A program made the position numbers and the translations under genes. From the IMG/VR virus record IMGVR_UViG_3300027969_000097, positions 1-64,000 of that record: DNA of 64,000 nucleotides, one strand, 5' to 3'. Each line of letters begins with the position of its first letter. The first letter of the stretch is position 1. The stretch comes from a virus. Under the pieces are notes generated by a model, which made no database searches, had not been told where the DNA came from, and saw only the letters and a list, made by a program, of their open reading frames with translations. Positions 40,043-57,807 of the stretch are shown here, piece by piece.

Positions 40043-41173
40043 ATGGCAAATCTACAAACAACAGTAATAAATGATCAAGGATTTTTGCAATTACCAAAAG
40101 GTAACGCAGGAGCTCGTCCAAGCCCAACAGCTGGTATGATACGTTATAACACTACCAATAATCTAGTTGAATTTTATGACAATACTGGCTGGCGACCAGT
40201 CACTGGTATCAGTAAAGGATCCATAGGTACTGGCGGCAATCAAATTTTATATGCAGGATCAAATACTAGTCGTAGTAATTCTGTTGTTCACGTGTTTACA
40301 GGTGGCAGTCAAACATTTACTCCAGCGTTTACCGGAACAGTAGAAGTGCTTGTTGTAGGCGGCGGCGGCTCTGGCGGCGGACATTTAGGTTCAGGCGGTG
40401 GTGCCGGCGGCATTATATATAACAGATCATTTCCTGTTACTAACGGTGTAGGTATTCCAGTAACAGTTGGAGCAACTGCTGGATCCCCACCTGCATACTC
40501 AACAAGTTCTACAAACGGAAATAATTCAGTATTTGGATCCATTACTGCTAACGGCGGTGGCGGTGGCGGATCATGGGACGGATATGCCGGTCGTCCAGGC
40601 GGCTCAGGCGGTGGCGGTTGCCCAGGATCAAACGGTGCAGGATCAAACGGATTTACAGGCCCAAATGATAGTAGAAATAAAAATATGGGTGGTCGGGGAA
40701 TAACAGGTCAAGGATATCCCGGCGGTAGCGGAATTAGATTTAATCGTCAAAGCGAAGATACACACAAAGGTGGTGGCGGTGGCGGCGCTGGCGGCCCAGG
40801 ACATAGTGCAGAAGATGATTGCCACCAAGGATTGCTCAACGATGGCGGCCCAGGAATAGCAAACAGTATACTTGGATATACTGAATACTGGGGTGGCGGT
40901 GGTGGTGGCGCATGCCATCATGGAAATAGCACATTGGCTTCTAGCGGAGGCATTGGTGGCGGTGGTGGCGGTACTCAAACGCACGGCGGCCCAAGATATT
41001 CAGGTAGTTCACATGGTGGTGCTGGCGTTGGCGGGCCTGGTTATAACAACGGCGGCAATGGTTCTAGTCACTATAACGGCGGCAATGCTGGCGACAATAC
41101 CGGAGGCGGTGGCTCTGGCGCTCACGGACAAGCTGGCAACGGCGGATCCGGCATTGTAATTGTAAAATATTAA
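40043..41173 (+). CDS. Glycine-rich tail fibre adhesin, copy 2
   Basis: 376 residues with the same plan as the previous gene: LPKGNAGARPSPTAGMIRYN ... LVEFYDNTGWRPVTG, then VVHVFTGGSQTFTPAFTG and VEVLVVGGGGSGGG, then the Gly-rich region to the end (GNGGSGIVIVKY). Shared anchors such as GVIFNRSFPV / GIIYNRSFPV, GITGQG(F/Y)PGGSG and GGAGGPG alternate with segments that differ strongly between the copies. That is what is expected if loops vary for receptor choice and the framework is fixed. GAGAAT lies just upstream. All three genes are short enough to exchange parts by recombination. Confidence 0.85.
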   Translation: MANLQTTVINDQGFLQLPKGNAGARPSPTAGMIRYNTTNNLVEFYDNTGWRPVTGISKGSIGTGGNQILYAGSNTSRSNSVVHVFTGGSQTFTPAFTGTVEVLVVGGGGSGGGHLGSGGGAGGIIYNRSFPVTNGVGIPVTVGATAGSPPAYSTSSTNGNNSVFGSITANGGGGGGSWDGYAGRPGGSGGGGCPGSNGAGSNGFTGPNDSRNKNMGGRGITGQGYPGGSGIRFNRQSEDTHKGGGGGGAGGPGHSAEDDCHQGLLNDGGPGIANSILGYTEYWGGGGGGACHHGNSTLASSGGIGGGGGGTQTHGGPRYSGSSHGGAGVGGPGYNNGGNGSSHYNGGNAGDNTGGGGSGAHGQAGNGGSGIVIVKY

Positions 41174-41185
41174 TTAGAGAAAAAT

Positions 41186-42286
41186 ATGGCAACGTTAAAA
41201 AATACAACAATTACTTCAACAGATTCAGTAAACTTACCAAATCAAACAGTAAGTACAGCGGCTGGAACATCTAAATTACGATTTAATACTACAAATAATC
41301 AAAATACTTTAGAGTTTTATGACGCAGGTAACTGGCGCCCAGTAACTGGATATAGTCAAGGATTAGTAGGAACTGGCGGAGATTCTATCTCTTATATTCC
41401 AGGCGGCGGCATTGTACACATGTTTACCAGTGTTACTAGCGGAACATTTACTCCTGCGTTTACAGGTAACGTTCAAGTTTTAGTAGTCGCGGGCGGAGGA
41501 GGCGGAGGCTCAAGCTGGGGTGGCGGCGGTGGTGGTGGTGGAGTTGTTTTTAATCGTAGTTTTCCTGTTAGTAATGGTACTGGATATCCTGTTTCGGTTG
41601 GCGGCGGTGGCACACACGGCCCAGGAAATAGAGGAGGTAACAGTGTATTTTCAACACTAACTGCCAACGGTGGAGGTTCAGGCGGCACATGGACACATAC
41701 TAATCCAGGTGCTTTAGGAACTTATACAGCTGGTAATCCTGGAGGCTCAGGCGGTGGTGGAACAAATACTGGAGACGGTATTGATAGTCGCACACGCTGT
41801 TACGGCGGTTTAGGAGACAGCGGACAAGGATATCCTGGAGGTAGCGGAATTAGATTTAACGTCGATTCTGAAAATACTCATCAAGGCGGCTCAGGCGGCG
41901 GAGCAGGTGGCGGCGGCGCATCGGCACCAGATGGTCGTCAAAATTACCGCGGCGATTTTAGAAGCGATAATATGACAGGCGGCGCTGGTCGAGCAAGCGA
42001 TGTATTAGGAAATATGTTATACTTTGCAGGTGGAGGTGGCGGTGGTGGTCACTTAGGCTGGGGACTATCTGATGGTGGTATTGGTGGTGGCGGTGGCGGC
42101 GGACATCATCACAGTGGCCCATATGGCGGTACAAGCAGACAAAGTTTAGGCGGTGGTAAGGCTTTAAATGACGGTACTGCTTGCGGAGGAACTGTTAGCG
42201 GAGGGCCTGGCGGATCAAATTCAGGCGGCGGCGCCGGCGCTCACGGTGGCACAGGTGGTAGCGGAGTTGTTATTATTAGATACTAA
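41186..42286 (+). CDS. Glycine-rich tail fibre adhesin, copy 3
   Basis: 366 residues. The N-terminal motif is degenerate compared with the other two (LPNQTVSTAAGTSKLRFNTT, then EFYDAGNWRPVTGYSQG). IVHMFTSVTSGTFTPAFTG and VQVLVVAGGGGGG follow, and the Gly-rich domain ends GGTGGSGVVIIRY. It is the last gene of the fibre block. A terminator lies 18 bases after its stop, inside the 3' end of the convergent gene, and the two stop codons overlap by 3-4 bases. It is interpreted as another variant of the receptor-binding tip. Confidence 0.85.
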   Translation: MATLKNTTITSTDSVNLPNQTVSTAAGTSKLRFNTTNNQNTLEFYDAGNWRPVTGYSQGLVGTGGDSISYIPGGGIVHMFTSVTSGTFTPAFTGNVQVLVVAGGGGGGSSWGGGGGGGGVVFNRSFPVSNGTGYPVSVGGGGTHGPGNRGGNSVFSTLTANGGGSGGTWTHTNPGALGTYTAGNPGGSGGGGTNTGDGIDSRTRCYGGLGDSGQGYPGGSGIRFNVDSENTHQGGSGGGAGGGGASAPDGRQNYRGDFRSDNMTGGAGRASDVLGNMLYFAGGGGGGGHLGWGLSDGGIGGGGGGGHHHSGPYGGTSRQSLGGGKALNDGTACGGTVSGGPGGSNSGGGAGAHGGTGGSGVVIIRY

Positions 42287-43032
42287 ACTGACTTGTCAGT
42301 ATCAAAAGGGCACTTAGTTGCCCTTTTTTCTTCTAATGCTGTATAACGTTCTTTTAAAGGTCTAAACATGTTAGCATTACGTATGTCATTACATAGTTTC
42401 ATTTCTTCGTAAGGTGTTTCTGCCTCAACTAGTTTTACTATATCGTCTGTATGAAATTTTATATAAGCAAGTGCATCGCCTTTTTTAATTACAATGCGCT
42501 CTTTATGACTTCTAATTTCAAAAGCAGTTTCTACAGGTCTAGTCCATTTGCTAATGTCGTACTGGCCTGGAACTATAGTAGTTTTTTCTGTAAATTCATT
42601 ACGATGCATAAAAGCTGGAAATACTTGTATCATAGTAGATTCTTTACAAGTAAAAATAGTAAGCCAATCAACTCCTAGTAACGGATATACATCGTTACCT
42701 TTTTCTGTACCAAATAAAAATCTAGTATCTATGATTGAATCAAACACTTCTTGAGATATATTATCGCACCAAATTTTTACAGTATCTGTAGATATATCTA
42801 TATCAAGATTAATTGTTAAATCAAACGGCGCACAAAATACAAACGTATTTCGCAAAAAATCGGTATGTGCAGGACATTTTAAATACGTTATACCTTTTCT
42901 TGAACTAGTTATTTCCTTGGATAAATTTTTAAAAGGTTTGTAGTTAGCATCTAATAACGGCTTAACACAATCTGGATGATCAATGCCCCATGTATTATGA
43001 GTTGTAAAAGACCAATTTATTATTCTTGTCAT
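42283..43032 (-). CDS. Unknown conserved-looking protein of the halogenase island
   Basis: 249 residues, no signal peptide or membrane segment. It has KCPAHTDFLRNTFVFCAPFD near residue 53 and VFPAFMHRNEFTEKTTIVPG (about 137-156). DISKWTRPVETAFEI and KKGDALAYIKFHTDDIVKL follow, the last two looking like strands of a double-stranded beta-helix. A cupin-like fold is possible, but I do not see an HxD...H metal site and do not assign a family. It overlaps the halogenase gene at 43029 by an ATGA, with this gene upstream of the overlap on the minus strand... that is, its ATG (43030-43032) shares bases with the halogenase stop, so it is translated after the halogenase. Its 3' end is crossed by a terminator for the opposite strand. 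Confidence 0.75.
   Translation of the reverse strand: MTRIINWSFTTHNTWGIDHPDCVKPLLDANYKPFKNLSKEITSSRKGITYLKCPAHTDFLRNTFVFCAPFDLTINLDIDISTDTVKIWCDNISQEVFDSIIDTRFLFGTEKGNDVYPLLGVDWLTIFTCKESTMIQVFPAFMHRNEFTEKTTIVPGQYDISKWTRPVETAFEIRSHKERIVIKKGDALAYIKFHTDDIVKLVEAETPYEEMKLCNDIRNANMFRPLKERYTALEEKRATKCPFDTDKSV
42304..42329 (+). terminator. Terminator ending the fibre block
   Basis: Stem AAAAGGGCA / TGCCCTTTT with a 6-base loop and two further Ts. It lies in the last codons of the minus-strand gene 42283-43032. Because of its A and T tracts it could also act on the opposite strand. Confidence 0.8.
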
Positions 43033-44492
43033 TTTGTAAGTTCATGTATGCGATCAATTTCACTACTATGGTGTCGACTCCATACATGTTTATGTTTTTC
43101 AAATTCTACATATACTTTTCTTAGTAATTCTCTAGCGTATTCAGGTGTGTAAGGAATATTCCTAGGAGCAATTTCAAACCCTAACTGTTGCAAGCACATG
43201 GTCCAACTACTACCGCCAAACATATAATTAAATTTACTATCAACAGGCACTTTAATATCAGGATTTTTCAAACGTTCAAGATAATGTAGCATTCTTTCAC
43301 TAGGTACAAATGTATCTTGAACATGTTTCCAAAATTTACTTGTCCTATTATTATTAGCATAATGCATACTAACAAATGATACACAATCCTCAAACAGTGT
43401 AACCATAAATGTGTTGAACAAATCTATATCATTTTGTGTATAGTACTGTTCATGTAGTGTATTGCTTAATTGTGTAATGCCCACAGTAATTAATCCAACG
43501 CCTGTGCTTTCTAAAGGTTCTATAAATCCGCCACTTAGGCCAATTTGTACAACATTGCCAACCCATGGATCTTCATTATAAAACGGATCCCAATTGATAG
43601 CACGTACATTTTCTTTTTTAATTCTACCTTCCCAATAGTTGGCAAAATATTCTTTAGCTTCTTCAACATCCGTAATATGTCTATTAAACACCATGCCACT
43701 TCCAATACGATTTGCAACTCCAATTTTCCATATCCAGCCGTGATCAACAGCATCACACTCAGCGTATGGTTTAAATTCGTTAGGCCTGTCTACATATGGA
43801 ACTTGATGTACTACCGCAGTATTAACAAACAGGCGATTTTTTAAATCAATTTTTCTTTCAGATGTTCTTAAGATATTATAAAACCCTGTACAATCAACGT
43901 ATAAATCTGATTTAATAAACTGTCCGTTTTTTAATTCTATAAAATCGATGTTGTCATTTTCTTTTATAACATTGACTACTTCAGATTTGATAATTCTAAT
44001 TTTGTCTTTTAATTTTTCTTGTATATATAACACTAGCTTTCCACAATTAATGTGATACGCCGCACTATCACCACTTATTGGATTAATTGTATTATGTAGT
44101 ACTGCTGAACTATAGCCGCCTGTAACATGTGTTTTAAAATCTAAATCCTGAACTAAAGACCAAATATCCCACAAATGATAATCTTCATTTACTTTTCTAT
44201 TGCCTTTAAAAAATGGATGCCAAATATTGTTACCAGATTCACGCCAATTTGTAAACAATATTCCAGCTTTGTACCCAGAGTCTAATTCTACAAACCAATC
44301 TTCTAACGGAAATCCGCATTCTTCCATAAAAGGTTGAAAACTTAATAGTGTTGCCTCGCCAACTCCTATTGAGTTGCCTACTTCTTTATCAACAACTGTG
44401 ATTTTAATGGCCGGATGGTTGTGATGTAAATAGGCGGCCGCCAGCCATGCACTAGTGCCCCCGCCTACAATGGTTAAAGTTTCTGTTTTCAT
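43029..44492 (-). CDS. Flavin-dependent tryptophan-halogenase family protein 1
   Basis: 487 residues from the ATG at 44492, which places the dinucleotide-binding motif IVGGGTSAWLAAAYL at the N-terminus as usual. An ATG 54 bases upstream would add 18 residues. Family members use FADH2 and oxygen to make hypohalous acid, which reaches a catalytic Lys near the substrate. K75 in SGYKAGILF matches that Lys, and E328 in FIEPLESTG matches the catalytic Glu. The W-x-W-x-I-P signature reads WIWKIG, lacking the Pro. It is the most diverged of the four copies here and the only one with ES rather than EA after the Glu. A TATAAGTA box ends 5 bases before the start. Substrate unknown. The phage homologue VirX1 iodinates diverse compounds. 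Confidence 0.85.
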   Translation of the reverse strand: MKTETLTIVGGGTSAWLAAAYLHHNHPAIKITVVDKEVGNSIGVGEATLLSFQPFMEECGFPLEDWFVELDSGYKAGILFTNWRESGNNIWHPFFKGNRKVNEDYHLWDIWSLVQDLDFKTHVTGGYSSAVLHNTINPISGDSAAYHINCGKLVLYIQEKLKDKIRIIKSEVVNVIKENDNIDFIELKNGQFIKSDLYVDCTGFYNILRTSERKIDLKNRLFVNTAVVHQVPYVDRPNEFKPYAECDAVDHGWIWKIGVANRIGSGMVFNRHITDVEEAKEYFANYWEGRIKKENVRAINWDPFYNEDPWVGNVVQIGLSGGFIEPLESTGVGLITVGITQLSNTLHEQYYTQNDIDLFNTFMVTLFEDCVSFVSMHYANNNRTSKFWKHVQDTFVPSERMLHYLERLKNPDIKVPVDSKFNYMFGGSSWTMCLQQLGFEIAPRNIPYTPEYARELLRKVYVEFEKHKHVWSRHHSSEIDRIHELTK

Positions 44493-44497
44493 AATAT

Positions 44498-44505
44498 TAC
44501 TTATA
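44498..44505 (-). promoter_or_regulatory. Weak late-promoter-like box TATAAGTA
   Basis: One mismatch from TATAAATA, on the minus strand, ending 5 bases before the ATG at 44492, which has no clear ribosome site. Confidence 0.3.
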
Positions 44506-44531
44506 TTATTTTCTGCCTCTAGTTCAAATTT

Positions 44532-44539
44532 CATAAATA
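44532..44539 (+). promoter_or_regulatory. Late-promoter-like box CATAAATA
   Basis: Ends 5 bases before the ATG at 44545. No ribosome site lies upstream of that ATG, so a near-leaderless transcript is suggested. Divergent from the box at 44498. Confidence 0.45.
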
Positions 44540-44544
44540 TTGTC

Positions 44545-45159
44545 ATGAATACCAGTAGCCTAAGAATATTTGACGATTTTCTCTCACCCGATGAATTTAA
44601 AACATTATCGGAAACTGTGCTAGGACAGAAATTTCCCTGGTTTTTTGGAGAACATGTATCTATGGATCCCAGAGATACTGCTAATGTAGACGATCCGTTA
44701 GCAGTTGAAACATGGGGATTTAATCATTCTGTATTTGAACGTGAATGGGAAGTTAAAAGTTTTACCTACGATCAACTAGAACCCTTGTTTAAAAAATTAG
44801 GATCTGAATTTGGATTTACACAGGCCCATTTAATTAGAGCAAGATTAAGCATGAAATTTCAAAAAGAAGGATTTACTGCTGATAATTATAACATCCCCCA
44901 TGTTGATTACTATTATCCTCATGAATCTTTTATATTCTATCTCAATGATACAGATGGCGATACCCGTATATTTGATCAGTGGCACACATATTCGGAATCC
45001 ACTAGGCCAGCATTTCCTGTAGAATTCACAACCCAAGCTCGGGTAACCCCCAAAGCTAATCGTCTAGTATGGATTAACGGACTGCAATATCATACTGCCA
45101 GTAATCCTATTAGCGGTACTAAACGAGTTATAATTAATATTAATTTACAACCATTATGA
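44545..45159 (+). CDS. 2OG-Fe(II) oxygenase-like protein (HVD...H...R)
   Basis: 204 residues from the ATG at 44545; the longer frame from 44455 lies inside the divergent halogenase and has an unlikely hydrophobic start. The beta-helix core carries the metal triad H119-x-D121 (IPHVDYYYPHES) and H183 (GLQYHTASNP), with R194 (GTKRVIININ) placed to bind 2-oxoglutarate, so it is probably active. These enzymes hydroxylate or otherwise oxidise C-H bonds, and substrates cannot be read from sequence. It is related to the gene at 48491, sharing the FPWF ... DGDT.IFD ... RVTPK pattern. The next gene starts in its stop codon (ATGA). Confidence 0.8.
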   Translation: MNTSSLRIFDDFLSPDEFKTLSETVLGQKFPWFFGEHVSMDPRDTANVDDPLAVETWGFNHSVFEREWEVKSFTYDQLEPLFKKLGSEFGFTQAHLIRARLSMKFQKEGFTADNYNIPHVDYYYPHESFIFYLNDTDGDTRIFDQWHTYSESTRPAFPVEFTTQARVTPKANRLVWINGLQYHTASNPISGTKRVIININLQPL

Positions 45160-45767
45160 TAGTTGACAACATTTTTCCTATACCACTTGTTAGATTTATT
45201 GTTGATCCTGCTATTGTTAAAAATACACAACAGTTAGTTAATCAATATGTAATAGATTCAGACATGACTAACCCACCAGCGCCTGGCGAATTATTAACTA
45301 CTTTTTACAAAGATAAAAATTTCTTAGGCAAACTAGGAGATAAGCCTTTATCAAATTATATTAATAAAGTAACACGAGAATATTTAAACTTGTTAGGTTA
45401 CGATCCAGATTGCTTTATAGAACTAACGTCGTGGTTGCAATTTAATCAACCTGGTAGTTATTTTGTCCGACATGATCACTACGGAGCATTAGTAAGTGGT
45501 GTATTATACTTACAAGTACCTGAAGAATCTGGAGATATTATTTTTCATAACCCGTTGGAAGCAAGACGTGTATCAAATACTTTTTTTGATAGAGTAAAAA
45601 AAGAAGAAAATAATTATAATTTCAGCCATGTAAAATACAAACCGGTAGTGGGTGAAATGCTAATGTTTGAGTCTTGGTTACAACATACTGTAGCACAGAA
45701 TCATTCTAATGAAAATAGAATTTCAGTTTCATTTAACGTATGGGCAGACACAGATGTCAAAAGTTGA
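45156..45767 (+). CDS. 2OG-Fe(II) oxygenase-like protein (HxH subtype)
   Basis: 203 residues. It follows the phage TIGR02466-type layout: N-terminal FPIPLVRF, core FVRHDHYGALVSGVLYLQVP with H106-x-H108, then GEMLMFESWLQHTVAQN (H177) and ENRISVSFNVW (R188). In this subfamily the second ligand position is His rather than Asp, as also at 45754 and 62023. Many T4-like marine phages carry such genes, with unknown targets. It is coupled to the preceding gene by ATGA (45156-45159) and overlaps the next by 14 bases, so the three plus-strand genes form one operon. Confidence 0.8.
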   Translation: MIVDNIFPIPLVRFIVDPAIVKNTQQLVNQYVIDSDMTNPPAPGELLTTFYKDKNFLGKLGDKPLSNYINKVTREYLNLLGYDPDCFIELTSWLQFNQPGSYFVRHDHYGALVSGVLYLQVPEESGDIIFHNPLEARRVSNTFFDRVKKEENNYNFSHVKYKPVVGEMLMFESWLQHTVAQNHSNENRISVSFNVWADTDVKS

Positions 45768-46335
45768 AATGTGGTTTCCAGTTGCAATATATCGACAAGA
45801 CGGTATAATTACTCGCGAGCAAAATGACCGTTTACGAAAACATTGTCTTGCTATACAAAAAAATACTCCAACCGGCGGCGCAGAATGGCTAGGAGGCACG
45901 TATAATACACATCAAACTCATGATTTATCTACAGATATAGAATTTCAACCAGCATTAGATGCTGTTACACATCATGTTCACGAATTTGCCAAATTACATA
46001 ATTGTAATATGTCATATCAAGGAAGTTATGCATGGATGAATATTGCAGAAGGGTCGGCATGGCAAGAATTTCACACACACAACGGTAATATCTTTAGTGC
46101 TGTGTATTATGTGGATGCGCCAGAAGGGTCTGGTAAAATTATATTTGAAGATCCTAAAGAACCCGATATGATGCCATTAAAAACACATATCAATAAGAAT
46201 CATCTACGTTATACTAGAATTTCATATACACCTGAGCCGGGTACATTATTAATATTCAGGTCTTATCTTAGACATTGTGTAGAACCTGGGACTAATAGCG
46301 AACCCAGAATTTCAATTGCAATGAATTTTAACTAA
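45754..46335 (+). CDS. 2OG-Fe(II) oxygenase-like protein (HxH subtype) 2
   Basis: 193 residues from ATG 45754 (MSKVEMWFPVAIYRQDG). An ATG at 45769, just after the previous stop, is an alternative. The N-terminal FPVAIY matches the start of this subfamily. The core is EFHTHNGNIFSAVYYVDAPE with H107-x-H109, then SGKIIFEDPK, GTLLIFRSYLRHCVEP (H174) and EPRISIAMNFN (R185). All positions expected of a working enzyme are present in the HxH form. It converges with halogenase 2 on the opposite strand, and the two 3' ends overlap by 8 bases with no terminator visible between them. Confidence 0.8.
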   Translation: MSKVEMWFPVAIYRQDGIITREQNDRLRKHCLAIQKNTPTGGAEWLGGTYNTHQTHDLSTDIEFQPALDAVTHHVHEFAKLHNCNMSYQGSYAWMNIAEGSAWQEFHTHNGNIFSAVYYVDAPEGSGKIIFEDPKEPDMMPLKTHINKNHLRYTRISYTPEPGTLLIFRSYLRHCVEPGTNSEPRISIAMNFN

Positions 46336-47806
46336 TTTTTTTAAATTTACGGATACTTTCAATATATTGTTTATGCCCTACAGTTGGTTGAACTGATCCT
46401 AACATTCTAATTTCTCGAATAAAATCTTCTGCAATGTCTTTAATTTTAGGATGCATCATTTCGTATTCTTGTTTAATTGCACTGGTATCAAATAAATTTA
46501 ATCCGTACAAGATATGTGTATAGTGTGCTTCGCTGAACAGTTTATAGTCAGTTGATCCTCTAAAATCATCGGCTACTGGTAAATTCTTCTTCCACATTTT
46601 TAAATTTTTTGCAAGACTTTCAGGAATAGGCATGTTTTGTACATCTTTCCAAAACTGAGTATTATCTTTCTTAGTGATATAGTGTAATATAACAAAATCA
46701 CGTATGTTAGTCAGTATGTCGGCAATATCTTTATTGTATTTTTCTATATTATCTTCACTATAGTTAGGCAATCGGTGCATTAACAAAAATGACTGTTGTA
46801 TGCTAGTACCAATACTAGTGGCTTCTAAAGGTTCGACAAAACTGGCACTTAAACCAATAGCACAACAATTTTTAATCCACACTCGATCTAATGCTCCAGG
46901 ATCAAAAGTTAATGTTTTTCCAACAGTGATCTCTTTGCCCAACATTTTTTCAACTTCTAGTTTAGCTTGTTCCGGAGTTATATAGTTACTATCAAATATA
47001 TAACCGTTGCCGCTACGTCCCCATACTGGAATTTTAAACATCCAACCGTAATCCATTGCCTGAGCTAGAGTCCACATGTTATATTCATCAGTATCTTCCA
47101 TTGGAAATACAATAGCAGTATTCATTTTAAGATATTTGCTATGGCTTTGCCATGTAGCACCTAGTTTGGTAATTAACATCTTTCTAAAACCGGTGCTGTC
47201 AATGTAAAAATCAGCATGATATTTGTCAGCTTCGCCTACTAAGTGATTAATTTTTCCGTCATCGTCTAGTACTATATCTAAAATTTCATCGTCTATAACA
47301 TCAATTTGTCTATCCATTGCAACTCGTGTAAGAAAATCATTAAGTTTTTGTGTATTAAAATGATACTGGTTCCACGGCGGCCCAGTACTGATGTCTTCTA
47401 ATCGATAAGCCGCAACCCTATTATTCCAAGAACCTGGTATGTTTAGCGTATGTTTAGGAGCACGATCTCCAATCAGTTTGCCGTATACTGAATGATATTG
47501 ACCATTTTTTACATCTTTCTCTGGGCCAATGCTATGCATATAGTCTTCCTTAGCCCATCCTTTGAACATAATCCCGCATTTAAAGGTAGCATCGCATTCT
47601 TGTATAACACGTTCAAATGGAACTCCAATATACTGCATGAATTCATTCCAATGCTCTGTACTTCCTTCACCTACTCCTATGATACCAATTTTTTTAGAGC
47701 GAATAACATTAACTTTAGAAGTAGGAAATCGCATTTTTAAAATTAATGCGGCCACAAAACCTGCTGTGCCGCCGCCTACTACTGAAATTGTATCTATTTT
47801 ATTCAT
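46328..47806 (-). CDS. Flavin-dependent tryptophan-halogenase family protein 2
   Basis: 492 residues. FAD-binding motif VVGGGTAGFVAALIL at the N-terminus and GIIGVGEGSTEHW (about 41-53). Catalytic-type Lys K76 in CDATFKCGIMF, and Glu E328 in FVEPLEATSIG, spaced as in halogenase 1. The W-x-W-x-I-P signature is WMFKIP, with Phe for the second Trp. The residue after the Glu is Ala, not the Ser of PrnA/RebH. Trp halogenases need a flavin reductase; none is encoded in this window, so host FADH2 would be used. AGGAAA precedes the ATG. It lies 10 bases after the DUF6445-like gene and forms the end of a six-gene minus-strand operon (52.2 to 46.3 kb). Confidence 0.85.
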   Translation of the reverse strand: MNKIDTISVVGGGTAGFVAALILKMRFPTSKVNVIRSKKIGIIGVGEGSTEHWNEFMQYIGVPFERVIQECDATFKCGIMFKGWAKEDYMHSIGPEKDVKNGQYHSVYGKLIGDRAPKHTLNIPGSWNNRVAAYRLEDISTGPPWNQYHFNTQKLNDFLTRVAMDRQIDVIDDEILDIVLDDDGKINHLVGEADKYHADFYIDSTGFRKMLITKLGATWQSHSKYLKMNTAIVFPMEDTDEYNMWTLAQAMDYGWMFKIPVWGRSGNGYIFDSNYITPEQAKLEVEKMLGKEITVGKTLTFDPGALDRVWIKNCCAIGLSASFVEPLEATSIGTSIQQSFLLMHRLPNYSEDNIEKYNKDIADILTNIRDFVILHYITKKDNTQFWKDVQNMPIPESLAKNLKMWKKNLPVADDFRGSTDYKLFSEAHYTHILYGLNLFDTSAIKQEYEMMHPKIKDIAEDFIREIRMLGSVQPTVGHKQYIESIRKFKKIS

Positions 47807-47816
47807 TTATATTTTC

Positions 47817-48494
47817 CTATACAGTACTTATTGTTTGCTGGTTGTAGTTAAACTGCGATATGAAAAACAACAAAGTTAACCGTGGAGTTCCAGTTTTGGT
47901 GGACATACTGTTTGGCCTATGCCACATTTTAGAATCGTACGCAATTAAACGATTAAATTTATTTCCAATTCTGATAGTTTCTGAATTTTCAAGTAACTTT
48001 CGATTTCTTTCAAATCCTTCAACAAATTCCGGAGTAACATTTTCGTCTAAATAAAATTTTAAACGAGCTTCTGCATCCGAAGGTAATTCATCACATGTTG
48101 ATAAGTCTGCACCTTTGCCTGAAAATATAGAAGTTCCAGTATTAAGATTATCCTCGTCAGGAGTTAAGTATACCAATCCTGCTAAATTGCCATAGTCTGC
48201 GTGTATCCAACCTGCATTAAATCTTTTATCTTTGTAAACATCATTAATATGGAAACATACGTATATTTCGTATCGACTAATGCCTGGAAATACATCATAA
48301 CTAACCCTATCAGCAAACCAATCAGCAAATTTTTTAATTTCTGGATCTTCCATAGCTAATAAATTTCCAGTTCTACGTCCTGGAAAATATGTGGACTTGT
48401 GGAAATCTAAATTATTTGCTATTGCAATAACATTGTCAGGTTTATCAAAATAGTCATCTCTACAAATAAGATAATTTTTATAAAGATGTGTCAT
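47817..48494 (-). CDS. 2OG-oxygenase-like protein, DUF6445-like
   Basis: 225 residues. N-terminal FPGRRTGNLLAMED and the core GWIHADYGNLAGLVYLTPDE have H98-x-D100; WHRPNSMSTKTGTPRLTLLF gives H192 and R205. The pattern fits the DUF6445 family (from memory), whose members look like small Fe(II)/2OG dioxygenases with a longer insert between the HxD and distal His. All metal and oxoglutarate ligands appear intact. Coupled by ATGA to the gene upstream on this strand (48491-49141) and followed after 10 bases by halogenase 2. Substrate unknown; association with halogenases is recurrent in this island. Confidence 0.75.
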   Translation of the reverse strand: MTHLYKNYLICRDDYFDKPDNVIAIANNLDFHKSTYFPGRRTGNLLAMEDPEIKKFADWFADRVSYDVFPGISRYEIYVCFHINDVYKDKRFNAGWIHADYGNLAGLVYLTPDEDNLNTGTSIFSGKGADLSTCDELPSDAEARLKFYLDENVTPEFVEGFERNRKLLENSETIRIGNKFNRLIAYDSKMWHRPNSMSTKTGTPRLTLLFFISQFNYNQQTISTV

Positions 48495-49141
48495 AATGTC
48501 TCAAAATCAAAATTAATTACAATTCTAGAACTTTTTGTTACGGGATAATTGCCAGCGTGGTATCTGTGACCGTTAAAGAATAAGCCTGCACCTCGCTTGG
48601 GAGTAACACGTACTAACTCTGGTAGCGGTTCTGCAAATACTGGATCGTATATTTCTTCAGCAGGATTAAAAATTTTATCAAATATAATAGTATCACCGTC
48701 ACAGTCGTCTATATAGTAAACTAGTGTACTATACGGATGCCCAGTGTTAAAGTCAACATGCGGTGCGGCATATTTAAAATCAGTATGCCCTTGCCCTTTG
48801 TGTGTATAACGTAATCGTATACGCAGTAAGTTTTTAACATTAATATTAGTCTTTTCTGTAAAAAAATCTAAGATAGGTCTAAAAAAATCATAGTGAGCAG
48901 ACGTAACATTACCGTCAAACGCCATATGGAAGAATCCTACATCATCTGTTATGTTAGGATCTACGTAATTAGGAGTAGTACCTACCCCATAGTGATCTGG
49001 ATGGCCGATACGATGCAATAAAAACCAAGGAAAGTGATTTACACCTTGTACTCTTTCTAAAATTGCATTTTGAAAAGATTCTGGAACAATGTTTTCTATT
49101 AAAAGAATCTCGTCTTTAATATTGTTTATTTGATAGGCCAT
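48491..49141 (-). CDS. 2OG-Fe(II) oxygenase-like protein (HVD...H...R) 2
   Basis: 216 residues. Metal triad H128-x-D130 (AAPHVDFNTGHPYS) and H195 (GHRYHAGNYP), with R206 in SSRIVINFDF for 2-oxoglutarate. Further family features are HFPWFLLHRIGH near the N-terminus, DCDGDTIIFD after the HxD, and RVTPKRGAGLFFNGHR before the distal His. Related to the gene at 44545. Its first 26 bases overlap the 3' end of halogenase 3 in another frame, and its stop overlaps the next ATG, so it is embedded in a tightly coupled operon. Confidence 0.8.
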   Translation of the reverse strand: MAYQINNIKDEILLIENIVPESFQNAILERVQGVNHFPWFLLHRIGHPDHYGVGTTPNYVDPNITDDVGFFHMAFDGNVTSAHYDFFRPILDFFTEKTNINVKNLLRIRLRYTHKGQGHTDFKYAAPHVDFNTGHPYSTLVYYIDDCDGDTIIFDKIFNPAEEIYDPVFAEPLPELVRVTPKRGAGLFFNGHRYHAGNYPVTKSSRIVINFDFETL

Positions 49142-50672
49142 TTTTTTGTCGTATATCTCGTATATATTTTATAAAATTATTATATGTGTAACAACTTGAA
49201 AATTCTGTTCTCCATATATCTTGTAAATCATAATATGTTTGAGCAGTAACAGTCTTAATATCGCCGTGTACTGGCAATTTAAAACCTAATTCTGCCTTAG
49301 CAACCGATGGATCTAGCAAATTTAGCCCATCCATTACAAAACTGTATAGCGGCCAACCTGCAGATCCAGAATAACTAGGAAAATCATTTACAGTTGGTAC
49401 TTTTGTTTTAGACATTTCTAATAAATTTGTTACAAATTCAGTTTTAACAATACCAGACTTAATGTATCTCCAAAATTCACTGTCATCTCTTCCGCCCATA
49501 TAATGCATGACTAGGAAATCCTTAATATCATCATACATTTTTCTAACTCTTTGGTTGTGTATATTTCTAGAACCAGTGTTTAATGTTTCTTCTAGTGTAG
49601 GTTTTAAATACTCAAACACTATCATTTGTGCTTGAACAATAGACGAATGAATACTTGTAGCTTCTAATGGTTCTAAAAATGCACTACTAAGTCCAATAGC
49701 AACACAGTTTTTAACCCATGCATTTTCTTGTCTGCCAGAATCAAACTTAATAACTCTTGCCGGATTGATCTTTTTACCAAGTAATGTTTCAATTTCTTCT
49801 TGTGCTTTATCCGCAGTTGTAAATGCATCGCAAAATGCATAGCCGTTACCTTTACGATCGATTAATGGTACAGTCCACATCCATCCGTTCTGTTGTGCCC
49901 ATGCCGTTGTATACGGAACCGGCAATTCGTCAGCATCATAATCTAATAAAAACGGTATAGCAGAATTAAGAGGAAGGTTAGCTTGATAGCTAACCCATTT
50001 ATTAGGCAATTCGTTCATCAACACTTTATGAAATCCAGAGCAATCGATGAAAAAATCTCCAGATACTGGATTGTTGTCTTGTAAATTTAATGTTTTTATA
50101 TTACCAGTTACTGAATCTAATTCTACATTTACTATTTCATCGTCAATATATTGTACATTGCCGGCACGTAAACAAAGTTTTTTAAAATACTTACCTACTA
50201 AATGAGCATCTACGTGAAATGCATTAGACGGTACTTGGAAAGAGTTTGTACGCTCGTCAAAATTTGAAAGCCCGTGCTCTAACCAATAACCGCATCTGCT
50301 AGTTGTTAGTAAGGAATCATTTGCTAAACCAACACTTCGGCAAAATAAAGGATCAGGAACACTCATATGTGTCCATGATCCATCGATGGGTGCTAAGTAA
50401 GAACTATTAATATCGTTAGTCCAACCTTTGTGTTTAATACCGTATTTCAATGTGGCGCCGGTTTCTATAATAAATTCGTTTATGTCACACCCTAAATCGT
50501 AAATGTGATTTGTCAGCACGTCAGTTATTCTACCGGTGGTACTTTCTCCAACCCCAATGATTCCAATCTTTGACGATTCAATTACAATAATATTATGATT
50601 AGGATGACGTCTGGCCGCTAGTAATGCTGTAATCCAGCCTGCCGTTCCACCTCCAACAATAACTACGTTCAT
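49116..50672 (-). CDS. Flavin-dependent tryptophan-halogenase family protein 3
   Basis: 518 residues, tandem paralogue of halogenase 4. FAD motif MNVVIVGGGTAGWITALLAA, then GIIGVGESTTGRITDVLTNH. Lys K76 in TGATLKYGIKHKGW, signature WMWTVPLIDRKGNGY (264-278) with both Trp residues and the Pro, and Glu E337 in FLEPLEATSIHSS. Like the other two EA-type copies it has Ala after the catalytic Glu. It therefore keeps all residues thought essential for halide activation. ATGA coupling (50669-50672) links it to halogenase 4 upstream, and its 3' end overlaps the 48491 gene by 26 bases. Confidence 0.87.
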   Translation of the reverse strand: MNVVIVGGGTAGWITALLAARRHPNHNIIVIESSKIGIIGVGESTTGRITDVLTNHIYDLGCDINEFIIETGATLKYGIKHKGWTNDINSSYLAPIDGSWTHMSVPDPLFCRSVGLANDSLLTTSRCGYWLEHGLSNFDERTNSFQVPSNAFHVDAHLVGKYFKKLCLRAGNVQYIDDEIVNVELDSVTGNIKTLNLQDNNPVSGDFFIDCSGFHKVLMNELPNKWVSYQANLPLNSAIPFLLDYDADELPVPYTTAWAQQNGWMWTVPLIDRKGNGYAFCDAFTTADKAQEEIETLLGKKINPARVIKFDSGRQENAWVKNCVAIGLSSAFLEPLEATSIHSSIVQAQMIVFEYLKPTLEETLNTGSRNIHNQRVRKMYDDIKDFLVMHYMGGRDDSEFWRYIKSGIVKTEFVTNLLEMSKTKVPTVNDFPSYSGSAGWPLYSFVMDGLNLLDPSVAKAELGFKLPVHGDIKTVTAQTYYDLQDIWRTEFSSCYTYNNFIKYIRDIRQKNGLSNKQY

Positions 50673-52219
50673 TTAACACCTCGAAATTTTCTTATATCTC
50701 TGAAATAATTTATAAATTCTTCGTATGAGTAACAATCTTGTAAATTATTGGTCCATTGGTCTTGCATATTATAGTATACTTCAGTACCTACATCTTGCAA
50801 ATTACCGTGCCTAGACATTATCATTTTTAGATCCATAGCACTAGCACGTTTATCTATTAAATTCAATCCGTTCATGACAAAACTATACAAGGGCCAGCCG
50901 GCACTACCGGGATAATTTGAAAAATCGTGGTCTGAAGGAACTTTACTTTTGCCCATATGTAACAATGTATCGACAAAGTCTGTTCGAGTAACACCACTAC
51001 TAATCATGCGCCAAAAATCGCTATCGTTTCTACCACCTTGATAGTGCAATACTAGGAAATCTTTAATATCATCGTACATTATACGTGTACGATGGTTGTA
51101 TACCCTACGGGATCCTTCATTCATTGTTTCGATTAGGTCTTCTTTTAAGTATTCAGCCGCAAAGTTATGAGCTTGTACTACTGAAGAATGTATACTAGTA
51201 GCTTCTAATGGTTCTAAAAATGCACTACTAAGTCCAATAGCAACACAGTTTTTAACCCACGCTTCCCGTTGTCTACCAGCATCAAATTTAATAGTACGTA
51301 TAGGTTCTATTGGCTGTCCTAGTATTGTTTCAATTTCTTCTTGTGCTTTATCCGTAGTTGTAAATGCATCGCAAAATACATACCCACAACCTTTACGATC
51401 CATTAAAGGAATTTGCCACATCCATCCGTTTTTTTGTGCCCAAGCAGTTGTGTACGATTCAGGAACTTCATTTTCTTTGTATTTTAGTAAAAAAGGCATG
51501 CCTGTATTAAGAGGTAAATTTTTCTGATAACTAATCCACTGATTGGGCGCCACAGTATTCATTAATACTCGATTAAATCCAGAACAATCGATAAAGAAGT
51601 CGCCCTCTATTAACTGGTCATCATCTAATATAACGGATTTTACAAATCCATTTTTAGAATTTAAATTAACATGTTTTACAATACTATCTATATAAGATGC
51701 ATTTGCATTTTTTAAAGTTATTTTTTTAAAATATTGACCTGCGAGGTGTGCATCAATATGCATAGCGTGGTCATGATTTATGAATGTTTTAGTAAATTTA
51801 TTAAAATTAGATTTATTGTTTGCTATACGATGCCCGCATTCACTAATTTTAATAAAATCTTTAGGTTCTAAATTATGTTGAGCCCAAGATAGTAAAAAAT
51901 CAGGCACAGATGTTCGTGTATAACTACCGTCTATTGGGCCGATATAACCTTGATCAATATTATTAGTCCATCCTTTGTGATGAATGGCATATTTTAAGGT
52001 TGCACCTGTTTCTATAATAAACTCGTTTAGATCACAACCGTAATTAAATCTGTGATTTGTTAAAATATCAGTTAACCATCCAGTAGTACTTTCTCCAACT
52101 CCAATTACTCCAAGTTTTGAAGACTCAATTATAGTAACAGTATGATTAGGATGTCGTGCAGATATCATCAACGCTGTGACCCAACCTGCTGTTCCACCTC
52201 CAACAATAACTACATTCAT
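50669..52219 (-). CDS. Flavin-dependent tryptophan-halogenase family protein 4
   Basis: 516 residues, closest to halogenase 3 throughout its length. FAD motif MNVVIVGGGTAGWVTALMIS, Lys K76 (TGATLKYAIHHKGW), signature WMWQIPLMDRKGCGY (266-280), Glu E339 (FLEPLEATSIHSS). The differences between copies 3 and 4 are concentrated in about residues 105-200, a region that would cover the substrate side in Trp halogenases, which hints at different targets. AAAGGA lies about 5-10 bases before the ATG. The gene is preceded by the paired oxygenase-like genes at 52233 and 52847 on the same strand. Confidence 0.87.
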   Translation of the reverse strand: MNVVIVGGGTAGWVTALMISARHPNHTVTIIESSKLGVIGVGESTTGWLTDILTNHRFNYGCDLNEFIIETGATLKYAIHHKGWTNNIDQGYIGPIDGSYTRTSVPDFLLSWAQHNLEPKDFIKISECGHRIANNKSNFNKFTKTFINHDHAMHIDAHLAGQYFKKITLKNANASYIDSIVKHVNLNSKNGFVKSVILDDDQLIEGDFFIDCSGFNRVLMNTVAPNQWISYQKNLPLNTGMPFLLKYKENEVPESYTTAWAQKNGWMWQIPLMDRKGCGYVFCDAFTTTDKAQEEIETILGQPIEPIRTIKFDAGRQREAWVKNCVAIGLSSAFLEPLEATSIHSSVVQAHNFAAEYLKEDLIETMNEGSRRVYNHRTRIMYDDIKDFLVLHYQGGRNDSDFWRMISSGVTRTDFVDTLLHMGKSKVPSDHDFSNYPGSAGWPLYSFVMNGLNLIDKRASAMDLKMIMSRHGNLQDVGTEVYYNMQDQWTNNLQDCYSYEEFINYFRDIRKFRGVK

Positions 52220-52232
52220 TTAAAATCCTTTA

Positions 52233-52850
52233 TTAATTATATGTAACAACAAACACAATTCTGCGGGTTTTAGGCGCAGGGTATCTGTGGGCATGCCATT
52301 CTTGCTTAAACGATACTGCTGTATTTTGTACACACGGAATACTATAAGTAGTAGAAAAATCGTCAGGCCATATTAACGTTTCACCTGCTTCGCATGTATT
52401 CAAATACATAATGAAATTACAGTGCGGCCAATCGTGGTCCAAATGCGGCTCTGTATGATTAATATCATTATACCAGTTTAAATTTAAATTGGCTCTGTAT
52501 ATTTTAGTATATTTAATATTGTTTGTAGACATGAATCTATGAAACAATTCAATAAAAAATTCATAATATATACTAAAATCGTCAGGGCCTCTGTCTAAAT
52601 GACTTTGATCACCGTGCTCTGCTTTCTTTAGTAATGTATGACTAAAGAATTGCGAATTATAATGTACTAACTGTGGCCTTAACCAATCAGGAAGATGTTT
52701 ATTATAAAAAAACTCAGTATCAAATGCTTGCCCGCTTTTCCAAAACCAAGGAAATTTTGAACCCATTATAACGGTTTCAATAAATTCTTGTTCTTGAGGA
52801 TATACAACAACCGTACCGTGTGTTATTGCATTTGTAATATCTTTGCTCAT
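52233..52850 (-). CDS. 2OG-Fe(II) oxygenase-like protein, tandem copy A
   Basis: 205 residues, start placed at 52850 where the ATG overlaps the TGA of the preceding gene (ATGA); a longer frame from 52913 lies within that gene. Motifs: FPWFWKSG near residue 33, core EPHLDHDWPHCNFIMYL with H136-x-D138, GETLIWPDDF, then EWHAHRYPAPKTRRIVFVV (H186/H188 and R197). The HLDHDWPH block and EWHAHRYPAP are shared with copy B at 52847. The pair is thus a recent duplication that kept all ligands in both copies. Followed by halogenase 4 after 14 bases. Confidence 0.8.
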   Translation of the reverse strand: MSKDITNAITHGTVVVYPQEQEFIETVIMGSKFPWFWKSGQAFDTEFFYNKHLPDWLRPQLVHYNSQFFSHTLLKKAEHGDQSHLDRGPDDFSIYYEFFIELFHRFMSTNNIKYTKIYRANLNLNWYNDINHTEPHLDHDWPHCNFIMYLNTCEAGETLIWPDDFSTTYSIPCVQNTAVSFKQEWHAHRYPAPKTRRIVFVVTYN

Positions 52851-53470
52851 ACATAAGTTACCACAAATACCAGTCGCTTTGTTCCAGGTGCCGGATACCT
52901 GTGTGCATGCCAATGCTGTTTAAAAGTTACAGCAGTATATTGTATACAGGGTATCATGTAACTAGTTGCAAAATCTTCAGGCCATACTATAGTTTGTCCA
53001 TCTTCGCAGTCTGTTAGATACATGATAAAATTACTGTGCGGCCAATCATGGTCTAAATGCGGAGCAGTATGCCAATCTCCGTTATACCATGTTAAATTTA
53101 AATTAGCTCTAAATATATTTGTATATTTTATATTGTTTTCAACAGTAAATCTATGGAATATCTCAAGGAAAAACTCCCAGTACTGACTAATTTCGTTACT
53201 TGGACGCTCTGTATGTTTTACATTTTCAATTTCTGTACGATGCAATAATGTATGACTTAAAAATGCACCATTGTAAAAGTCTATATGTTCACGTAACGCT
53301 GTAGGAAAATTACTTTTAACTGTTTCTTTGTCATCGGTAGTTTGTCGATCTTGCCAAAACCATGGAAAATAAGGTCCCAAGAATAAACTGTTAACAACAT
53401 CACGTTCGGCAGGATACACAGTAACCGGCGCATGTGTTACAACTGAATTTACCAGCAAATCTCCAATCAT
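52847..53470 (-). CDS. 2OG-Fe(II) oxygenase-like protein, tandem copy B
   Basis: 207 residues and first gene of the minus-strand operon. PYFPWFWQDR near residue 34, core APHLDHDWPHSNFIMYL with H138-x-D140, GQTIVWPEDF, and HWHAHRYPAPGTKRLVFVV (H188/H190, R199). It shares most of its length with copy A. AGAGG lies upstream of the ATG. A weak TTAAATA box on this strand (53491-53498) in the divergent spacer could drive the operon that runs through both oxygenase copies, halogenases 4 and 3, two more oxygenases and halogenase 2. Confidence 0.8.
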   Translation of the reverse strand: MIGDLLVNSVVTHAPVTVYPAERDVVNSLFLGPYFPWFWQDRQTTDDKETVKSNFPTALREHIDFYNGAFLSHTLLHRTEIENVKHTERPSNEISQYWEFFLEIFHRFTVENNIKYTNIFRANLNLTWYNGDWHTAPHLDHDWPHSNFIMYLTDCEDGQTIVWPEDFATSYMIPCIQYTAVTFKQHWHAHRYPAPGTKRLVFVVTYV

Positions 53471-53596
53471 TTAAACATCCTCTTGTAGGATATTTAACCT
53501 ATAAAATTTTAAGATTGTACAGACTTGATATAGCCAAATTTTAAATATATTGCTGGAAACAAAGATAAGTACAAAAACTAATCAACGGAGTATTTC
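53471..53596 (+). other. AT-rich divergent spacer of the accessory island
   Basis: A 126-base gap between genes running away from each other, so it should hold promoters for both directions. It is AT-rich. I see a weak late-like box GTTAAATA for the minus-strand operon and no convincing sigma70 pair; a TTGATA followed by TATATT at 15-base spacing on the plus strand is too short to trust. Confidence 0.35.
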
Positions 53597-54208
53597 ATGA
53601 CATCTACTACAACCCAGGGCAATTTTACCGATGCGGCCACTGAAGGCCCAAGCAAACTAGCTTCTTTAGAAATTGTATCAATTAATAAATCTGAACTTTT
53701 TACTAAAGAAGAATGCGAAACTATAATGAGTAATTGCATAGATGAACTATGGTTGCCGGCAACTGTAGTTGGTAACACAGACGGCAGTTTCCACCGTTCC
53801 CGCCGACAAAAATTAAGAGGAGATATTGCAGGATTTCCTTTTTTAAACATTCGAGATATAACAAAACTAGCAAATAACGAAGTTTATGATTTTAAATTGC
53901 TTGGTATAATTGATCAAGATTTCCCACAAATTTTTAGTTATGGTGAAAATGATTTTTATAAAATGCATATGGAATTAAATTCAATGTCATCTTCAAGAAA
54001 GCTAAGTTTTATTATCAATTTATCAGACCCAGATTCTTACGAAGGCGGTGATATTGAGTTTTTAAATATTGCCGCAGACCCTGCACTTCTTAAAGAACAG
54101 GGATCTTGTTTAGTTTTCCCATCATATCTAGCATATGGTATTGCTCCTGTGACTAAGGGCATTAAAAAAGTTATTGTTGGACATGTCCACGGTGCTGTGT
54201 TTAAATGA
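53597..54208 (+). CDS. 2OG-oxygenase-like protein with degenerate metal site
   Basis: 203 residues. It follows the PKHD-type hydroxylase layout (RKLSFIINLSDPDSYEGGDI, then LVFPSYLAYGIAPVTKG) and is clearly related to the next gene. The metal positions differ: HxD is HxE (H124-x-E126 in FYKMHMELNSM), the distal His of FPS..xH is replaced by Tyr (Y180), and the RY that binds 2-oxoglutarate is KK. It is probably inactive as a standard dioxygenase and could be a non-catalytic partner of the adjacent enzyme. An AACGGAG ribosome site precedes the ATG, and the stop overlaps the next start (ATGA). Confidence 0.8.
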   Translation: MTSTTTQGNFTDAATEGPSKLASLEIVSINKSELFTKEECETIMSNCIDELWLPATVVGNTDGSFHRSRRQKLRGDIAGFPFLNIRDITKLANNEVYDFKLLGIIDQDFPQIFSYGENDFYKMHMELNSMSSSRKLSFIINLSDPDSYEGGDIEFLNIAADPALLKEQGSCLVFPSYLAYGIAPVTKGIKKVIVGHVHGAVFK

Positions 54209-54993
54209 TTTTAAAATATAGTTACTGGTATTTTTTGTCGGCGTTACCGCCACATGTTTGTGATCAAATTATGGAAATGGGTTTAGAATCCATGCACGAA
54301 CAAAAACTAAAATATGGTGAAGAAGCACTAGTTGGAACAGTGGGCGGTTGGCTTCAAAAAGGCCAGAACAACGATGCAATACCAAGTAATCATGAAACTA
54401 GGGAACAACTAGCAGAAAAAGGAATAGATCTTAATCAAACGTATGTTCGAGATTCTAATGTAACATTTTTAAGTAATCCTTCTTTGTACGAGTTAGTATG
54501 GCCTTACATACGTGAAGCTAATAAAAAAGCAAATTGGAATTTTGATTGGGATTATACTGAAGATTTTCAATTTACAAAATATGGTATCAATCAGTTTTAT
54601 GGTTGGCATGCTGATTCTAGTGATTCTCCTTACGAAGAATTCAATCCAGAAGTTCATAGCTCTCATAAAAATCCAGACGGTACTACAATGACAAGTCAGC
54701 TTGGAGATCCAGTGCCCGAAGATCATAATAAAACTCTTAATAAAAATATGATTGGCAAAATAAGAAAACTTAGTGTTACTATTAGCCTAAATGATCCAGC
54801 AGAGTATGATGGCGGGAATTTACAATTCGATTTAGGGCCGCACCGCCCAGATAGATTTCATACTGTCACAGAAATACGTCCTCGAGGGTCAGTTATTGTA
54901 TTTCCATCACATATTCAGCATCAAGTAACACCGGTTACAAGAGGGACACGCTATAGTTTAGTATGTTGGAATTTAGGACCCTCATGGAAATGA
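54205..54993 (+). CDS. PKHD-type 2OG-Fe(II) hydroxylase-like protein
   Basis: 262 residues with a complete active site: H135-x-D137 in NQFYGWHADSSDSPYEEF, H239 in IVFPSHIQHQVTPVTRG, and R249 in TRYSLVCWNLG. RKLSVTISLNDPAEYDGGNL lies between. The family includes prolyl and other hydroxylases acting on proteins. It is paired with the degenerate homologue just upstream (ATGA overlap) and with the following gene (ATGA at 54990), forming a three-gene operon. About 60 extra residues (140-185, Asp/Pro/Asn-rich) are inserted between HxD and the RKLS strand. Substrate unknown. Confidence 0.85.
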   Translation: MILKYSYWYFLSALPPHVCDQIMEMGLESMHEQKLKYGEEALVGTVGGWLQKGQNNDAIPSNHETREQLAEKGIDLNQTYVRDSNVTFLSNPSLYELVWPYIREANKKANWNFDWDYTEDFQFTKYGINQFYGWHADSSDSPYEEFNPEVHSSHKNPDGTTMTSQLGDPVPEDHNKTLNKNMIGKIRKLSVTISLNDPAEYDGGNLQFDLGPHRPDRFHTVTEIRPRGSVIVFPSHIQHQVTPVTRGTRYSLVCWNLGPSWK

Positions 54994-55598
54994 CCAATAA
55001 CACATTTAATCAAAACAAATACATTGCAGTGACAGGGTTAATACCTGTTGATTTATGTAGAATTGTTACCAAATATGCTTTATTAAAAGAAGCTACTGAA
55101 TTTAATCCTGAAGGGCCAGGAACACAAGTAGAAAAAGCACACTCTGTATATGGTGATACTTTAATGGAAACGTTAATGTTTTTTTTACATCCGCATATGG
55201 AACAGCAAACTGGTAAAAAACTATGTCCTACGTATACATACTATCGTGTATATCGTCCAGGAGACAAGTTAGATGTGCATAGAGATCGAGAAAGTTGTGA
55301 AATAAGCACTACTGTTTGTTTTGGCTTTCATTATACTCTAAAAGATGCAGATTGGCGCTGGGGTATGTATGTTGAACCTGGTAATTTAATTACGCAAAAT
55401 CCGGGTGATGCTATTATATATAAAGGATGTGATTTAGATCATTGGCGCGACATCTTTGACGCAGGCCCAGATAGCTATCAAATCCAAGCATTTTTTCATT
55501 ATATTGATGTCGAAGGCCCCCATTATCCTGAATATGCGTACGATAAAAGAGGTGGGATAGGCATACGCAACGATGTCACAAAACGCATAAATAACTGA
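54990..55598 (+). CDS. 2OG-Fe(II) oxygenase-like protein (HRD subtype)
   Basis: 202 residues with the start at 54990, where the ATG overlaps the preceding TGA; earlier in-frame ATGs lie in the previous gene. Core YYRVYRPGDKLDVHRDRESC has H97-x-D99. A second block, NPGDAIIYKGCDLDHWRDIF, has H151. The C-terminal QIQAFFHYIDVEG ends the fold. The motif order matches a bacterial and phage family of small dioxygenases with the sequence YKGC(D/E)L.HWR. Last gene of this operon; the tail-chaperone-like gene follows after 25 bases behind its own GGAGA. Confidence 0.8.
   Translation: MTNNTFNQNKYIAVTGLIPVDLCRIVTKYALLKEATEFNPEGPGTQVEKAHSVYGDTLMETLMFFLHPHMEQQTGKKLCPTYTYYRVYRPGDKLDVHRDRESCEISTTVCFGFHYTLKDADWRWGMYVEPGNLITQNPGDAIIYKGCDLDHWRDIFDAGPDSYQIQAFFHYIDVEGPHYPEYAYDKRGGIGIRNDVTKRINN

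Positions 55599-56136: not shown

Positions 56137-57807
<1,671 letters not shown>

Follow-up and report, generated by a model that had tools for sequence, protein, structure and literature searches.

We analyzed a 64,000-nucleotide stretch (the window) of IMGVR_UViG_3300027969_000097, a 64.7-kb viral sequence from IMG/VR, which holds an island of 15 genes at positions 42283-55598: four halogenases, ten 2-oxoglutarate (2OG) oxygenase-like genes, and one gene of no assigned function. This island was found in conserved order beside genes for glycine-rich (Gly-rich) fibre proteins, and it may be a fibre-tip modification module, the enzymes of which would hydroxylate and halogenate those adjacent proteins. 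We give this proposal an even chance of being correct. It draws on the synteny of the island in diverged phages, with the Gly-rich genes next to one end; on the family and structural matches of the Gly-rich proteins; on recurrence of the layout in the cultured phages S-RIM44, syn9, Syn10, and HTVC008M; on a linkage test; on a hydroxylase-halogenase fusion; on the gene content of the same locus in phages that lack halogenases; and on a precedent for peptide halogenation. The gene content, the catalytic residues, the conservation of order, the neighbours, and the linkage in unrelated phages are direct observations.

Conservation of the island and its fibre neighbours

IMG/VR was scanned with two of the halogenases and the protein of no assigned function (unk) as queries. 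Roughly 18 further IMG/VR records, including some near-duplicates (G003/G004, G006/G007, and L140/L142), were found to carry a block in the same order. The conserved order begins with GroES/GroEL, a fibre-assembly chaperone, oFC, o61b, o61a, phrog_274 genes, halC/D, and o274b. It continues with a DUF6445-type gene, halB, o81b, o81a, o274a, halA, unk, and an optional fifth halogenase, halE, and ends with GR4, GR3, GR2, GR1, and the giant fibres. Protein identity among the phages that share this synteny is about 50-80%; a more divergent record, G005, has a different arrangement. Records of adequate length (contigs of 66-153 kb) each carry three to five full-length halogenases, which cluster within about 13 kb, with none elsewhere. 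The constant halogenase core is halA, halB, and halC/D, and the fourth and fifth genes vary by lineage. Since every open reading frame has a family match or deep relatives and the order is kept across diverged records, the gene set is more than chance. An earlier reading of this DNA from its letters only (the sequence-only reading) had proposed gene order in relatives as a check and had named random, unlinked variation as the refuting outcome. The opposite was seen, strict conservation of order, and random assortment of the enzyme set was rejected.

Wherever a record extends into the fibre genes, the unk/halE end of the island adjoins a Gly-rich trio. In the window, these are GR2 (38965-40029, + strand, 32% Gly), GR3 (40043-41173, +, 30% Gly), and GR4 (41186-42286, +, 31% Gly, convergent with unk), with a fibre-like protein, GR1 (37902-38963, +), upstream of them. 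GR2, GR3, and GR4 all exceeded the cut-off of PF21722 (Gly_rich_2). The AlphaFold model of GR4 (mean predicted local distance difference test score 81) had as its top PDB match the Pam3 cyanophage fibre 7ypx (E 2.8e-4), with a template modeling score to the target of only 0.42. The Gly-rich domain of Pam3 is a tip proposed to recognize and bind the host receptor (PMC9608196). GR2-GR4 are, therefore, putative Gly_rich_2/Pam3-type receptor-binding fibre tips and the proposed substrates. The non-Gly residues conserved over 21 GR proteins include W169, R202, P217, H232, D249, Y279, and P312. A search for sequence relatives of the GR proteins in the PDB gave none that were convincing. Two giant fibre genes (2789 and 3619 aa) are adjacent and are conserved in the same records. 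The sequence-only reading had placed the island between fibre genes and chaperonins, and this was borne out, with Gly-rich fibre genes on one side and GroES/GroEL on the other; it did not mention that the fibre neighbours are Gly-rich and putatively receptor binding, or that cultured cyanophages, including the source of VirX1, the one viral halogenase studied so far, have the same layout.

In S-RIM44, syn9, and Syn10, the fibre is followed by Gly_rich_2 genes, then two halogenases that overlap, a phrog_7084 gene, and 2OG-type genes. In HTVC008M, the order is fibre, a Gly_rich_2 protein, and then 2OG genes. The second syn9 halogenase matched VirX1 (6QGM) over its full length with 1271 bits. For the linkage test, 23 halogenase-bearing cultured-phage records were searched whole, which left 14 non-duplicate genomes with both families. 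A halogenase lay no more than 2 kb from a Gly_rich_2 gene in 10 of these 14 genomes. Random rotation of the halogenases (20,000 trials) gave a mean of 0.95 and a maximum of 6, a test that overstates independence since the 14 genomes are related to one another. We also observed that syn9 gp39 (L138:8672-9850), a Gly_rich_2 protein, contains an internal repeat and what looks like a change of frame, and that its Syn10 counterpart is a shorter open reading frame; this could be a duplication of the tip gene or an assembly error.

The same locus was compared among relatives by capsid protein, the contigs of which are fragments, so that absences there are suggestive only. In G015, the Gly-rich proteins and the enzymes are both absent from the fibre locus and the giant fibre genes are retained. 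In G023, Cys/Gly-rich proteins stand ahead of genes for a possible glycosyltransferase and a carbamoyltransferase-like protein and of three 2OG-type genes, as named from a reading of the sequence and comparison with the window proteins. The site in G010 holds Gly-rich proteins along with one phrog_7084-like, one 2OG-like, and one unk-like gene. This shows that the fibre locus is modular among the capsid relatives. In G023 (L176/L177) and S-SSM7 (L137:4754-7147), the Gly-rich fibre proteins were seen in Cys-rich form, with carbamoyltransferase-type genes beside them and no multi-halogenase set. The type of enzyme may follow the type of tip.

One T4-like phage has an open reading frame of 1167 aa (L012:4453-7953, +) that combines, as an in-frame fusion, an Asp/Asn beta-hydroxylase (PF05118, E 2.9e-10) and a halogenase of the halA type (E 3.6e-85), which ties hydroxylase and halogenase chemistries to a common task. 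About 500 aa at its C-terminal part have no assignment, and T4-like clamp genes adjoin it.

Predicted enzymes of the island

The four halogenase genes, all on the - strand, are halA (43029-44492), halB (46328-47806), halC (49116-50672), and halD (50669-52219), the second member of the halC lineage. Their matches to PF04820 had E-values of 1e-78 to 2e-95 and 265-321 bits, compared to a curated cut-off of 21 bits. All four carry the flavin motif (GxGxxG) as GGGTxxx, and the catalytic Lys and Glu do not vary across halA-D or any aligned relative, as the sequence-only reading had claimed for four homologues. The WxWxIP motif is WMWQIP in halD and WMWTVP in halC, with departures in halB (WMFKIP) and halA (WIWKIG). 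From these features, halA-D are predicted flavin-dependent (Trp-type) halogenases.

In a quick maximum-likelihood tree, in which some deep joins on long branches are unsure, halA grouped with its sister in S-SSM7, halB with its sisters in P-SSM2/S-H38, and halC/D with the type found in Syn1 and in S-RIM44 at 172 kb. The halE of related contigs fell inside the group of VirX1 and the fibre-linked cyanophage halogenases. Judged by these placements, the island brings together predicted lineages that are mostly single or paired in cyanophages. The contrast drawn earlier with single phage halogenases was too strong because S-RIM44 has three halogenases, and P-TIM40 has two at full length plus fragments. 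Halogenase genes distant from the fibre region that are possibly decayed, with an in-frame stop or split or incomplete matches, were seen in S-PM2 (121-122 kb), S-SSM7 (168 kb), and P-TIM40 (184 kb).

The 2OG-like proteins fall into five groups: a PF13759 type, a PF13640/PKHD type, DUF6445/phrog_1644, phrog_274, and phrog_2954. The phrog_274 group comprises o274a (44542-45159, +; triad H120/D122/H184, R195), o274b (48491-49141, -; H128/D130/H195, R206), o274c (52233-52850, -; H136/D138/H188, R197), and o274d (52847-53470, -; H138/D140/H188, R199). The DUF6445/phrog_1644 protein (47817-48494, -) has the triad H98/D100/H192 and R205, and oFC (54963-55598, +; phrog_2954) has H106/D108/H160. The PKHD-type oxygenase o61b (54205-54993, +) also has HxD..H, and the metal triad is thus intact in seven of the ten. 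The two PF13759/TIGR02466 proteins, o81a (45156-45767, +; H106/H108/H177, R188) and o81b (45754-46335, +), have HxH..H instead, which is kept likewise in their relatives. The remaining protein, o61a (53597-54208, +; PF13640, PKHD/prolyl-hydroxylase-like), has HxE and reads LAYG at the site of the distal His compared to IQHQ in its neighbour o61b, and it is probably inactive because the distal metal His is lost. In relatives, o61a remains beside the active-looking o61b, in the manner of a conserved inactive partner. The earlier count of ten proteins of at least five subtypes therefore held, with the qualification that o61a is probably not an active enzyme.

Only o81a, o81b, o61a, and o61b exceeded the cut-off of a Pfam 2OG family. 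The DUF6445 protein did so for its DUF alone and, as the sole query, returned no viral loci. The 2OG assignment of the phrog_274 proteins comes from the motif and weak matches, such as that of o274c to PF13640, and that of oFC comes from the motif and its PHROG. PDB sequence relatives of the phrog_274 group were sought and none was convincing. The PHROG labels DNA endonuclease V (phrog_274), ferrochelatase (phrog_2954), and minor coat protein (phrog_1644) were rejected since the proteins bear 2OG-type metal triads; these wrong-looking labels may mislead the annotation of many cyanophages. An eleventh 2OG oxygenase-like gene, o81c (62023-62595, +; phrog_81), was missed in the sequence-only reading and sits outside the island, between a head-tail adaptor-like gene and a deoxynucleoside monophosphate kinase gene.

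The one further protein without an assigned function was also correctly noted before. It is unk (42283-43032, -; 249 aa; phrog_17480), which overlaps halA through ATGA. Its AlphaFold model has a beta-rich fold with a weak likeness to dUTPase. Comparison with its positional counterpart in cyanophages, phrog_7084, gave an E-value of 0.0028 and an hhalign probability of 11%, which is no more than a hint of homology. None of the scanned bacterial genomes encoded a relative of unk.

The operon packing described earlier is real at six junctions, where four-base ATGA-type overlaps occur (43029-43032, 45156-45159, 48491-48494, 50669-50672, 52847-52850, and 54205-54208). Near-matches to the T4-type late promoter TATAAATA numbered 161 compared to 175 expected, with three exact matches and none at the island. 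A tail fibre assembly chaperone-like gene (55624-56079, +; PF16778) is the conserved border gene, and phage-encoded GroEL and GroES lie directly beyond the island (56137-58110) and are kept in relatives that reach that far. The record is most likely a fragment of a large uncultured T4-like myovirus because the top relatives of its major capsid protein (8954-10126) belong to large T4-like phages such as Sinorhizobium phage Phosso, PA5oct, and CBB/GAP32 (66-72% identity). No tRNA genes were found in the record.

Proposed modification of fibre tips and alternatives

Under the proposed fibre-tip module, the phage would make several flavin-dependent halogenases and several 2OG-Fe(II) hydroxylases during virion production. 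The reduced flavin (FADH2) would presumably come from a host flavin reductase, since no flavin reductase gene was recognized here. The targets would be the neighbouring fibre proteins GR2-GR4. The hydroxylases might oxidize exposed side chains such as those of Pro, Asp/Asn, and His, and the halogenases might add Cl or Br to exposed aromatic side chains (Trp, Tyr, and His). Candidate conserved targets, in GR4 numbering, are W169, P217, H232, D249, Y279/position 280, H289, and P312. The adhesive tip could in this way be tuned or protected, and the number of enzymes could reflect different residues or fibre copies that need different enzymes. We infer from sequence the activity, a protein as the substrate, which protein and residues are modified, the timing, and the benefit. 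The earlier idea of a multi-step modification pathway acting on a virion protein gains support overall, with one of the ten oxygenases probably inactive.

Several observations weigh against modification of the fibre tips. The linkage may reflect the inheritance of one hypervariable host-recognition region instead of a relation of enzyme to substrate, and the conserved GR residues may be merely structural. Halogenases are not beside a Gly_rich_2 gene in P-SSM2, Syn1, S-MbCM6, or the 172-kb copy of S-RIM44, and a Gly_rich_2 protein occurs without a halogenase in G023, as does a sub-threshold one in G030. Carbamoyltransferase or sugar-type enzymes at the site in S-SSM7, G023, and G030 would fit a glycan or a small molecule. 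The departures of halA and halB from the WxWxIP motif also count here.

Other views in the literature are protection of the host from antibiotics (PMC2984593), a role in 2OG metabolism or DNA repair (PMC3037559), and, for S-SSM6a, production of a halogenated metabolite or decoration of the capsule (PMC7824862). A small halogenated and hydroxylated metabolite, derived from an amino acid or an amino acid and a sugar and acting on the host or on competitors, is the main rival explanation of the island, although we consider it unlikely. The nearest enzyme families are Trp halogenases, and several Trp halogenases act on free Trp. Such a metabolite was proposed for a cyanophage gene cluster that combines halogenase, 2OG, and carbamoyltransferase genes (PMC7824862), whereas the carbamoyltransferase and sugar/amino-acid tailoring genes of that S-SSM6a-type cluster are absent among the window island genes. 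Consistent with the sequence-only reading, no synthetase, carrier, or transporter, and also no ligase, was recognized among the island genes. The location at the fibre tip, covarying with tip type, and the nine active-looking hydroxylases, many for a single small molecule, also argue against it.

Modification of the host surface (lipopolysaccharide, capsule, or a receptor protein) could block superinfection or aid adsorption, with the enzymes in the host-recognition region because they evolve with receptor use. In pelagimyophages and cyanophages, this hypervariable region carries glycosyltransferases thought to alter host lipopolysaccharide (PMC7029224), and the locus in G023 and G030 includes a possible glycosyltransferase gene and a carbamoyltransferase-like one. 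Sugar enzymes are, however, absent from the window island. To our knowledge, halogenation of envelope glycans is not known chemistry for the PF04820 family, and we find a host-surface role improbable. Slightly less probable still is that other virion proteins, such as those of the giant fibres or the baseplate, serve as substrates in place of the Gly-rich tips. The giant fibre genes are adjacent and kept in the same records, and some of the unlinked halogenases of cyanophages are a few kb away from large virion structural genes, but Gly_rich_2 genes are nearest the island and are the family common to the fibre-linked cases, and G015 keeps its giant fibre genes while lacking both the Gly-rich genes and the enzymes. 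Selfish or neutral hitch-hiking at a hot spot of recombination, by genes that share no pathway, is very improbable. The region is a known hypervariable site (PMC7029224) and halogenase copy number varies from three to five, but the order is conserved, the catalytic residues are invariant over deep divergence, genes are coupled through ATGA, and one open reading frame fuses a 2OG enzyme to a halogenase.

The wider form of the fibre-tip proposal is that a dedicated post-translational pathway for halogenation and hydroxylation of the tips operates in phages whose receptor-binding tips are Gly-rich, that VirX1 and its relatives are fibre halogenases, and that virions carry enzymatically halogenated proteins. 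We regard this as somewhat less likely than not. If true, virion proteins halogenated by enzymes would add a new layer to the interaction of phage and host, the island would be a source of several related halogenases with possible activity on protein substrates, and halogenase and 2OG genes that are at present counted as auxiliary metabolic genes would be reassigned. VirX1 is already developed as a biocatalyst, and the accessible literature names no native substrate for it; if its genomic partners are the substrates, the question is directly testable on cultured cyanophages. Islands of halogenase and 2OG genes are already known in cyanophage genomes. The conserved cassette of three to five halogenases and its linkage to fibre tips appear to be new, and the same layout in S-RIM44, syn9, and Syn10 is apparently undescribed. 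A link of halogenases to Gly-rich fibre tips was not found in the literature searched, with much subscription literature lying outside that search.

Comparison with known systems

Precedent for the proposed protein halogenation comes from SrpI and MibH, flavin enzymes that halogenate Trp in peptides (PMC10858898). These are halogenases of ribosomally synthesized and post-translationally modified peptides, and they differ in that their substrates are short precursor peptides and their genes lie in bacterial clusters; in the window, no precursor peptide was noticed, and no search aimed at one was made. The S-SSM6a/S-SSM7 cluster resembles the island in having a halogenase (a sister of halA) and 2OG genes downstream of Gly-rich proteins. 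It differs in its carbamoyltransferases and sugar-type genes, which the window does not have, and it has been read as a pathway for a secondary metabolite or capsule (PMC7824862).

Pelagibacter phage HTVC008M shares the run of 2OG-type genes after a Gly_rich_2 fibre protein, but its sole halogenase is 8 kb away, between terminase genes, with another 2OG gene. The S-RIM44 island has a 3496-aa fibre, three Gly_rich_2 proteins, and two halogenases, followed by phrog_7084-, phrog_81-, phrog_1644-, phrog_274-, and oFC-type genes, so its parts are nearly the same as those of the window. It differs in having one operon direction, fewer genes, another halogenase lineage, and neck genes at its end. The VirX1 locus of Syn10 and syn9 is like the island in that tandem halogenases stand just downstream of Gly_rich_2 fibre genes, with a phrog_7084 gene and a 2OG run after them. 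It has two halogenases compared to four in the window, and in place of the VirX1-type halE, the window carries the A, B, and C/D lineages.

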